This document shows, piece after piece, positions 5,549 through 28,614 of a stretch of DNA of 30,200 nt; positions within the stretch are counted from its first letter, which is position 1; the number at the start of each line of letters is the position of its first letter. Under the pieces are notes generated by a model. It saw only the letters and a list, made by a program, of their open reading frames with translations. It had not been told where the DNA came from and did no database searches. Source of the DNA: a virus; the IMG/VR virus record IMGVR_UViG_3300050014_000235, positions 1 to 30,200 of that record. One strand, given 5' to 3'. The translations under genes were made by a program, and so were the position numbers.

Positions 5549-5743
5549 TCAGATCTCCTTGATGGTGAGCTTGAGCTGGGTGGCAACGCGCCGACCAGCG
5601 TAGGTGGGGTTGACGGCCTTTTCGGCGGCTTCGCGGTCGGTGGTTTCGTAGGCCTTCTCGACGGCATTCCAGGTCATCCCAAGGCGCTTGAGCATGTCCT
5701 GGTTGTTGTAGGTCTGGCCCTTGATCTGGTAGGTGGAGGTCAT
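5549..5743 (-). CDS. hypothetical protein, 64 residues
   Basis: GGAGG (5753-5749) is 5 bases before ATG 5743, so I prefer this to an in-frame start 18 codons upstream. MTSTYQIKGQTYNNQDMLKRLGMTWNAVEK (in part) suggests a small DNA-binding or phage-conserved fold (LKRLGMTWNAVEKAY looks like a short helix-turn-helix). The C-terminus is beta (RVATQLKLTIKEI). It is the first gene of a two-gene unit with the HTH protein downstream. Confidence 0.6.
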   Translation of the reverse strand: MTSTYQIKGQTYNNQDMLKRLGMTWNAVEKAYETTDREAAEKAVNPTYAGRRVATQLKLTIKEI

Positions 5744-5859
5744 CTCATCCTCCATGCCCATAGTATCGGTCAATTGTTTCCGATATGCAAGGGGCAATCT
5801 GAAATATTTTTCTGAAATCCAACCCTCGCGGGGAGCCCCGCACAGCAGCCGAGAATCCC
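5744..5859. promoter_or_regulatory. divergent operator/promoter region
   Basis: This region separates the minus-strand regulator pair from the plus-strand esterase. It contains a dyad, TATCGG (5764-5769) and CCGATA (5780-5785), around CAATTG; an 8-bp direct repeat TCTGAAAT (5798-5805 and 5811-5818), 13 bp apart; and a hairpin GCGGG-GAGC-CCCGC (5828-5841) in the esterase leader. On the minus strand, TTGCAT and GATACT with a 17-base spacer overlap the dyad as a weak sigma70-like promoter. I see no clear promoter for the esterase. Confidence 0.45.
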
Positions 5860-25682: not shown

Positions 25683-27026
25683 CTACGCCATCCATGAGTT
25701 ATGTGCAGCGGGCATACCTGGGAATTCGTCGTCGTTCGGCTCGGGTTCTTCGCCTGGCTTAGTCATGCCTGGGAATAGTTCGGTGAGCAGCCAGATCAAG
25801 GCATCAGCCCGGTTTGGAGACCTGGTTCCCATGTAGCCCACGGTTGAGAATGCGGTCAGTTCATCCTCAAGCTCAGGGAAGAACCCAACATGACAAACCT
25901 TGCCGTTTTCGTATAGGGCGCTGAACGGTTCGGCCCGCACTGTCTTACCCCTGCTGGCATGGACTTCGCGGTATGGGGTGCGCGGCCTGGCTGTCTGAAT
26001 GACAAAGCGGACCATCTCACCACCAAAGTTGGACTCACCAATCACCGCGCCGGCCTGGTGGCGATCATAGGCGCTTGTGGCAATCCTGCCCCATGTCGCT
26101 GGTCCAGCCTTGACGGTAAGGTCTTCGAGAATGTAAGCCCGTCCATCGATCCCGAGCCCCCCGACCATGATCCCGATTGCATCATTATCCGCGTTATCGG
26201 TATCACCTGATCCTGACGGGTCAACAGACACCAATACCCGGATAAGTTCGGGCACCCTCCCATCAATGACCCGCCATTTGTCAATGTCCACCTCACTGAA
26301 AAGGGCGTTGGGATTCTCATCGGACCATTCTCCACGGAGGAACCGGCGCTGCTGCCGGGCGCTCATGCCGTCCAGGACTTTCAGGTAGGAGTCTGAGATG
26401 TTGGTCAGGTTGTCTTCTGGATTGATCCTGAAAAACGCGTAGTCCTGCGGATCTTTGATGGCTTGTTTGGTCTCAGGGTCACGGCTTTCATGGAATAGTT
26501 TGTATCCCCAATGTCCCTTACTTGTGGGGTTGAGGTCGTAATACATCCTCACCGGAAGTAGCCGTTTTACCCCACTAACCTCCTGCCAAACTTTTTGGGC
26601 TAGGCGGGTGACTGCGATATTGCGCGCATCGAACCCAATTTGGCTAATTTCATTCAAATAAATAGTCGCAAACTCAAGCCCAAGGATTTTCTCAGTTCTT
26701 GCCTTGTCATCCAGCCCACCAAACCATATTTCTGCACCATTTGGGAACTTTGCGAACCAATCTGTCTTGTTCAGATCATATTCCACGTCTGGGTAACAGA
26801 CCGACATGACCTTTGGAAACGTGTCCATAATGATCGACGCTTTGATATGGTTGAACCTATACCGCAAAATACAATGTCTGCTGTCCGCCGCCTTGATTGC
26901 CCTGAAACTCACAGCCCTGGTGAGGAGGAAGGTTTTGCCTGACCGTGATCCCCCTTCAAGCATGATGTGGGTGGCGTCTCCGGATAAGACCTTTTGAGCT
27001 GCTTTTTGGGCGTCGGTGAGGCTCAC
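25683..27026 (-). CDS. terminase large subunit
   Basis: The product has 447 residues. Walker A is GGSRSGKT (25-32), Walker B is ATIYLNE (120-126, with Asn before the Glu), and the coupling motif is YYDLNPTSKGHW. The nuclease domain shows VSVDPSGSG (D269), GESNFGGEMV (E331) and SPNRADALIWLLTELF (D408). It is therefore an ATP-driven packaging motor with a C-terminal RNase-H-like nuclease, acting with the portal. It follows TerS with a 4-base overlap (ATGA). Confidence 0.92.
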   Translation of the reverse strand: MSLTDAQKAAQKVLSGDATHIMLEGGSRSGKTFLLTRAVSFRAIKAADSRHCILRYRFNHIKASIIMDTFPKVMSVCYPDVEYDLNKTDWFAKFPNGAEIWFGGLDDKARTEKILGLEFATIYLNEISQIGFDARNIAVTRLAQKVWQEVSGVKRLLPVRMYYDLNPTSKGHWGYKLFHESRDPETKQAIKDPQDYAFFRINPEDNLTNISDSYLKVLDGMSARQQRRFLRGEWSDENPNALFSEVDIDKWRVIDGRVPELIRVLVSVDPSGSGDTDNADNDAIGIMVGGLGIDGRAYILEDLTVKAGPATWGRIATSAYDRHQAGAVIGESNFGGEMVRFVIQTARPRTPYREVHASRGKTVRAEPFSALYENGKVCHVGFFPELEDELTAFSTVGYMGTRSPNRADALIWLLTELFPGMTKPGEEPEPNDDEFPGMPAAHNSWMA

Positions 27027-27379: not shown

Positions 27380-27647
27380 CGGCATCCCTCGCACATATCG
27401 CATCCCAAACATTGATGAGATACCACTTCGCTCTCAGTAAGGGCCGTTTGATGGGGTAGGTTTTTCGGCTAATCCAGGACTTGATGCGCTCCCACCGCGT
27501 AGGAACGAATTGCCCACAGATGATAAACTCATCACCTACCTGAAACCCAGATGTTGAGCTGGTGGTCAAAGTTATGTCTTTGGAATTCAGTGTTTGGCCA
27601 GATACAGATGTGATCTTGAAACGTTGGAGTTCCCTTGGTTTAATCAT
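27366..27647 (-). CDS. hypothetical protein, 93 residues
   Basis: I chose ATG 27647, as GGAGG stands upstream; a GTG five codons earlier is unlikely. The N-terminus is beta (FKITSVSGQTLNSKDITLTT), followed by SGFQVGDEFIICGQF and a basic, Trp-rich C-terminus (WERIKSWISRKTYPIKRPLLRAKWYLI). The last 14 bases overlap the TerS start. No family recognised. Confidence 0.65.
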   Translation of the reverse strand: MIKPRELQRFKITSVSGQTLNSKDITLTTSSTSGFQVGDEFIICGQFVPTRWERIKSWISRKTYPIKRPLLRAKWYLINVWDAICARDADDQA

Positions 27648-27739
27648 ATCCTCTTCCTCCACTCATCCAGTATATGCCCTAACCGGATGTAAAGCATCCA
27701 GAGAGGTAAAGTTAGGATTACGATTTGCCAGTCGGTCAT
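27644..27739 (-). CDS. 31-residue membrane peptide
   Basis: ATG 27739 has GAGGA close upstream. MTDWQIVILTLPLWMLYIRLG is a likely membrane helix, followed by a charged end (HILDEWRKRI). The stop overlaps the next start (ATGA) and the start overlaps the stop of the HEXXH frame (27736-27738). These overlaps strongly suggest translation. Confidence 0.6.
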   Translation of the reverse strand: MTDWQIVILTLPLWMLYIRLGHILDEWRKRI

Positions 27740-27882
27740 CTCGTCCTCATGGAAGGCACCCGTTTGAACACGGCGTTCATCAGGTATGCGAGGTTGTAGG
27801 CGTCCCATTCGTCGTGGGTTCCGTCGATTGCTTCGTTGATGTATTGAACGGCGTGTAGGCATTCATGGGCCAGGATCTTCCC
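27736..27882 (-). pseudogene. HEXXH-containing coding segment without a start (frameshifted part?)
   Basis: This frame is open from 27882 to TGA 27738-27736 and reads KILAHECLHAVQYINEAIDG, then a DEWDAYNLAYLMNAVF motif. HECLH is a zinc-metallopeptidase HEXXH signature, and the downstream Glu/Asp-containing helix is typical of small phage zincin-like proteins. There is no ATG, GTG or TTG before the motif; two stops lie just upstream in this frame. The 107-residue gene overlaps its 5' end in another frame. Skipping one base near 27883 would join them. Either a sequencing error, a pseudogene or a programmed +1 shift explains this. Confidence 0.55.
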
Positions 27883-28186
27883 TCACTAAAAATTCAGGGT
27901 TGTCCTGTAATAGGACCCATTTAACCCCGGTCCTGACTTGCTTGAAGATATCCCCTTTCTCCGCATGACAAGGTGGTTTGTATTGCGCAGCGAATTCTTC
28001 CAGCGCTGGGCCCACAATGTCCCGGCCGTTCATTTGGGCAAATGCCTCATGGGGGATAAATGCATATGCATCAATGCCGGGTAGCTTCATCCTCTCCCAC
28101 CCTTCGACCTTGGGGGGCTCCTTGACCGAGAACATCATCCCGCAAGAGATAGCATAGTTCAGTGGTGATTCGAACGTTGGCTTCAC
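27863..28186 (-). CDS. hypothetical protein, 107 residues (possible N-terminal part of a split zincin gene)
   Basis: GTG 28186 overlaps the NinB stop (GTGA) and has GGGAG upstream. The product includes MMFSVKEPPKVEGW, a short PHEAFAQMNGRDIVG and GVKWVLLQDNPEFLV, then ends REDPGP. The final strand WVLLQDNPEFLV is where zincin-like phage proteins place the strand before their HEXXH helix. The real helix lies in the next frame (27736-27882). Confidence 0.6.
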   Translation of the reverse strand: MKPTFESPLNYAISCGMMFSVKEPPKVEGWERMKLPGIDAYAFIPHEAFAQMNGRDIVGPALEEFAAQYKPPCHAEKGDIFKQVRTGVKWVLLQDNPEFLVREDPGP

Positions 28187-28614
28187 GACGGTCTCCCTTC
28201 GTATTTCAAATCTTCAACAAACACAACGGGTGGTTTGTTTTGCGCCCCAATCACATAGGCTCGCTCAATAACCTCGCTCATTTCTGCCGATGTCATGTCG
28301 CTAGTGTGGCATCCGAGCACAACCACGCCACCGTCCATGCCGGGTATGACCCGCAGTTCCCCGCGCTTAGACCGCATTACGGCAGAGCCGATGTAGTCTT
28401 TCCAGTCTTCAACATCCATTGTTTGGTCGTGGCATTTGACGCCAGCCTTGACTAGTTGGCTCAGCACCACGTGCATTTTGGCGCTTTGGAGGTTTGACCG
28501 GGTCGGTGGTTTGAAAACCACAACCCAGTCAGGGGGACATGACCAAAGGAATTTAACAGCGTTGGCCCTGGATGGCCCTGGGAGGCTCCGCAGAATGAAT
28601 TGGGTTGATCTCAT
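28183..28614 (-). CDS. ninB: NinB-like recombination protein
   Basis: The product has 143 residues. RSNLQSAKMHVVLSQLVKAG, then VEDWKDYIGSAVM and VVVLGCHTSDMTSAEMSEVIERAYVIGAQ match the NinB (lambda Orf) pattern of R-S-L-x-Q-N-x-K-M-W, E-D-W-K-D, L-G-x-x-T-S-x-M-T-x-A-E-M. The family aids RecF-pathway-type phage recombination by binding SSB or single-stranded DNA. It begins with an ATGA overlap at the upstream zinc-ribbon gene. Confidence 0.8.
   Translation of the reverse strand: MRSTQFILRSLPGPSRANAVKFLWSCPPDWVVVFKPPTRSNLQSAKMHVVLSQLVKAGVKCHDQTMDVEDWKDYIGSAVMRSKRGELRVIPGMDGGVVVLGCHTSDMTSAEMSEVIERAYVIGAQNKPPVVFVEDLKYEGRPS

Follow-up and report, generated by a model that had tools for sequence, protein, structure and literature searches.

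Small zincin-like proteins of phages

In zincins, the histidines of the HEXXH motif serve as zinc ligands and its glutamate as the catalytic base, and the site is usually supported by a sheet. The closest described counterparts of the gene presented here belong to PHROG 1365, a family of unknown function, and are found in Flavobacterium phage FpV4 (ALN97115.1, 136 aa) and Tenacibaculum phage Gundel_1 (gp112, YP_010356860.1, 127 aa). Both are small proteins encoded in a single frame, with a HECxH helix followed by a DExxAY-like helix. Our literature search retrieved nothing on this family and no activity on record. The window analysed here, a viral record of 30.2 kb, harbors a gene that shares these helices, but it is laid out in two frames and its N-terminal part has no detectable profile match. 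The SprT-like metallopeptidases (Pfam PF10263) also carry a HEXXH helix; however, a protein read across both frames of the window (hereafter the joined reading) reaches only 18.0 bits with that profile, below the Pfam cut-off of 25.6 bits, and it is consequently not filed there. Concerning the change of frame itself, the prfB-type programmed +1 frameshift offers a comparison in that a +1 change would join the two parts, although the window has neither CUU-UGA, nor a stop at the shift point, nor an upstream ribosome-binding site.

Organization of the locus

The minus-strand genes of the window include those of the terminase large subunit, the NinB/Orf recombination mediator and a primase. Directly downstream of NinB, a 107-residue ORF and a HEXXH-encoding segment overlap in neighboring frames (Table 1), as a reading made from the sequence only had pointed out. 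That reading had also noted that the HEXXH frame is start-less, and indeed it has no ATG, GTG or TTG between the twin stops and HECLH. The stop of the 107-residue frame falls within the HECLH codons, at those for His-Glu, and the spacing in the HEXXH segment is HECLH-x13-DEWDAY.

Table 1. Features around the frame change and other genes of the window referred to in the text.
Feature	Position	Strand	Remarks
107-residue ORF	27863..28186	-	GTG start at 28186, stop at 27865-27863; C-terminal end REDPGP
HEXXH-frame segment, start-less	27739..27882	-	encodes GKILAHECLHAVQYINEAIDGTHDEWDAYNLAYLMNAVFKRVPSMRTR; TGA at 27741-27739
HECLH zinc-site motif	27853..27867	-	direct sequence
DEWDAY motif of the next helix	27796..27813	-	direct sequence and family alignment
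Twin stops TAG TGA, upstream limit of the HEXXH frame	27883..27888	-	direct sequence
Stretch where the frame must change to keep HEXXH whole	27868..27883	-	deduced from stop positions
Downstream 31-residue ORF	27647..27742	-	ATG at 27742; ATGA overlap with the HEXXH-frame stop
NinB/Orf recombination mediator gene, directly upstream	28183..28614	-	Pfam PF05772, E = 9.2e-20; PHROG 72
Terminase large subunit	25683..27026	-	family matches; used to place the phage

The sequence-only reading had placed the change of frame between 27863 and 27883. Keeping both the His and the Glu of HEXXH narrows this to the stretch given in Table 1. Two features had escaped it: the stop of NinB (28185-28183) is shared with the GTG of the 107-residue ORF as a GTGA overlap, and the distance from this GTG to the TGA of the HEXXH frame is 448 nt, that is 3x149+1. 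At the other end, the overlap with the 31-residue ORF had been taken as a sign of coupling and hence of translation. It does mark the HEXXH frame as the end of a gene, though present translation does not follow from it. Profile searches against Pfam and PHROG gave no family match for the 31-residue ORF or for the 107-residue ORF alone.

Coding signal in both frames

HExxH alone is not beyond chance in this window, as it occurs four times in the six frames against about two expected. Its combination with DExxAY occurs once in the window and in none of 100 shuffles. We scored codon use as log-odds trained on the other genes of the window. The HEXXH segment obtained +15.6 bits in its own frame vs. 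-23.7 and -23.2 in the other two, and the 107-residue region +16.1 bits vs. -69.7 and -45.9, while in a sliding scan the best frame switched between about 27900 and 27870. Since codon use favors the own frame of each, both pieces are coding sequence, adjacent and in different frames. The codon scan revealed no second break of this kind in the window, which fits a single true mutation as well as a single error. The same scan highlighted a minus-strand ORF of 74 codons (window 5549-5773) with an unusually high score (46 bits), lying beside plus-strand genes.

Relatives encoded in a single frame

PHROG 1365 was matched by the HEXXH segment alone (E = 5.6e-6) and by the joined reading (E = 2.5e-6). 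The zincin-like identity first suggested from the sequence holds. The segment displays the succession of HEXXH and a DExxAY-like helix that characterizes the family, and the Glu and Tyr of DEWDAY are common to all aligned members. An uninterrupted ORF of 106-136 residues was found in eight viral contigs of six kinds (L002, 122 aa; L096/L103, 106 aa; L006/L008, 108 aa; L007, 123 aa; L009, 124 aa; L104, 115 aa), as well as in FpV4 and Gundel_1. None of the relatives found keeps the two-frame layout, and the single frame of the PHROG 1365 relatives is the feature that the window gene lacks.

The nearest relative, L002, is a 122-aa ORF of IMGVR_UViG_3300029955_000144 with 69% identity to the window over the last 45 residues. 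Both share a VFKRxPxMRTR end (VFKRAPFMRTR in L002, VFKRVPSMRTR in the window) and a GTG start with (A)KPT, but L002 is intact in one frame, has another N-terminal half and sits after the terminase gene instead of after NinB. Comparison of the C-terminal parts gave a dN of 0.21 and a dS of 1.9, indicative of purifying selection; this part has therefore been under selection since the split from L002, although the lesion is not dated thereby. The two phages are sisters (terminase 77% and endolysin 72% identical). Since the sister phage has its zincin gene after the terminase gene and other genes in the space between NinB and terminase, the zincin gene is moving cargo, placed differently in the two sisters. 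Both phages encode a NinB protein of 143 residues (178-609 of L106 in the sister phage) ahead of variable cargo genes, and the NinB-to-terminase cargo differs between them.

Other searches yielded no matches. A nucleotide search of phages gave no hit, and none was obtained for the 107-residue ORF in named phages or viral contigs, for two queries in genome contigs, or for the NinB protein used as bait in viral contigs. The zincin gene was absent near the terminase in 80 contigs with a related terminase, and also from 34 of the longer ones among them, which were searched whole. A degenerate pattern across the joint between the two frames detected no near-identical contigs.

One interrupted gene or two joined pieces

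The data are probably best explained by one small zincin-like gene in which a lesion at 27868-27883, immediately ahead of the active-site codons, changed the frame. This lesion would be a genuine mutation of recent date or else an error in the sequence or its assembly. The 107-residue ORF is likely the N-terminal half of that gene. Tblastn matches of the joined reading cross the joint, covering query residues 95-149 in L096/L103 and 96-143 in L006/L008, and the run-in to the helix is alike in the window (VLLQDNPEFLVRKILAHECLHAVQYI), L096 (DLNYIDPGRFIVFLVHECVHAVQFI) and L006 (CFDPKFLTPGIIAHECLHA). It had been proposed that the strand WVLLQDNPEFLV leads into the HEXXH helix; by eye this is plausible (compare DPGRFIVFLVHECVHAVQFI in L096/L103 and FDPKFLTPGIIAHECLHA in L006), while the scores support it weakly. 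With the 107-residue frame included, the SprT-like score was 18.0 bits vs. 13.6 without it, and ten shuffled controls reached 15.6 at most.

The likeness of the 107-residue ORF to the fast-evolving N-terminal halves of the relatives is, as far as sequence comparison can tell, not clearly above that of shuffled sequence. A local family profile on the N-terminal part showed no gain over shuffles, hhalign profile comparison aligned only residues 101-149, and the joined reading scored 28.4 bits with PHROG 1365, inside the shuffle range of 26.0-29.3. The best stretch with this family begins at residue 83 of 149, and L002 and L096 also match it only partly. Summed pairwise global scores of the N-terminal halves were reached by 21 of 300 shuffles, which is not significant; in the same pairwise test the relatives' own N-terminal halves were poorly alike in many pairs, which limits its power. 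Modelling of the joined reading with AlphaFold2, both in full and starting at Met33, gave low-confidence models (pLDDT 53 and 50) that were left out of the evidence; a PDB sequence search returned no relevant match and a viral fold search no usable one.

The main rival explanation, which we consider unlikely, is a chance fusion, in which the 107-residue ORF would be what is left of an unrelated cargo gene after loss of its end, joined out of frame to a 3' remnant of a zincin gene introduced by recombination. The N-terminal part, for which neither a family match nor a convincing match to any relative emerged, would suit such a fusion, as would the mobility of cargo implied by the sister phage, where the gene is placed elsewhere and other genes lie between NinB and terminase. 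The 149 aa of the joined reading also exceed the 106-136 aa of the relatives. However, the coding signal changes frame over about 20 nt and leaves no sequence unaccounted for, the start/stop overlaps at both ends agree with one gene, the spacing from strand to helix is similar to that of L096 and L006, and a poorly conserved N-terminal half is common among the relatives as well.

Frameshifting or separate chains

The sequence-only reading had left the choice between a programmed shift and a broken gene. The discontinuity of frame stands, and a broken or mis-sequenced copy is most likely rather than a programmed frameshift, because all relatives found carry the gene in one frame; an intact single frame was also what that reading had itself named as speaking against a programmed shift. 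That only a few ribosomes would produce the active site, be it by +1 recoding at AGG-G or with the two chains made separately, is improbable even when the two are taken together.

With regard to recoding, the only site with possible re-pairing in the frame-change stretch is AGG-G (27883-27880), where a programmed +1 shift would make a low level of full-length zincin beside the 107-residue short form; we regard this as very unlikely. A published predictor of forward shifts seeks 3-4 equal bases and a 0-frame A-site codon rarer than that of the +1 frame, and also weighs ribosome-binding-like sequence and structure (PMC10885494). On paper AGG could re-pair on GGG, and this phage uses AAG, the A-site codon of the +1 frame, slightly more often than GAA (31 vs. 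26 per thousand), but the GGG and this small difference are the only predictor features at the joint and they are unremarkable. Known stimulators are absent from GTG-AGG-GAA, which had been proposed as the shift site: GAA is a common codon and would not leave a hungry A-site, the RNA surrounding and following the joint shows no more stable fold than shuffled sequences do (z = +0.66), and no ribosome-binding-like site was seen by eye at the right place upstream. In addition, the genes of the window contain 13 in-frame instances of AGG with a G after it. Programmed frameshifts are recognized by a conserved two-frame layout and by a slow A-site codon, a stop or another stimulator, and neither was found here. 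As for a stop-driven shift of the prfB kind, the stop lies inside HEXXH, and a shift at this stop was rejected because the first His, a zinc ligand, would be lost. Slippage on the run of T immediately preceding the joint was likewise rejected, as it would enter the TAG TGA stops. Purposeful use of the frame change would make this locus a rare phage example of an enzyme whose active site is recoded by a +1 shift, and nothing found points in that direction.

Least credible of all is a split zincin, in which a HEXXH-DExxAY chain of 44-46 residues would start at a non-standard codon (ATC/CTG at 27876-27871) after GAGGG and work with the 107-residue protein, for in spite of the GAGG 4-7 nt before ATC/CTG and the coding signal in this frame, there is no standard start codon, none of the relatives is split, and a two-helix fragment alone would be deprived of the supporting sheet.

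Predicted function of the intact gene

Returning to the interrupted gene, an intact, PHROG 1365-related ancestor of about 149 codons would once have filled the space from NinB to the 31-residue gene, with stop/start overlaps at both ends, until the frame-changing lesion, mutational or artifactual, interrupted it just before the active-site helix. As the sequence is written, ribosomes would yield only the 107-residue product, presumably inactive, since it ends inside the HEXXH codons and no zinc site is made. The intact protein is most likely a putative small zinc-dependent peptidase, as its motif and the general properties of zincins suggest, and would bind zinc and cleave peptides. By the same motif, the two His of HECLH would act as zinc ligands and the Glu as catalytic base, and an acidic residue of the DExxAY helix may be a further ligand. 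Beyond annotation the locus contributes little; the small zincin-like phage proteins of this family gain one interrupted member.

Our searches also came across other HEXXH proteins. Salmonella phage PMBT28 (L101, 2824-3678) has a long HEXXH ORF (AHECYHATNFIYKRY) akin to annotated proteins of PSA28 and K21lambda1; at the matched stretch it is absent from the annotation of the PMBT28 record, which gives just a shorter, more internal ORF. Synechococcus phage Ssp-JY42 (L090, 11788-12213) encodes, among structural genes, a hypothetical HEXXH protein with CHEAVHVWQFV, which matches the local zincin profile with E = 2e-6.
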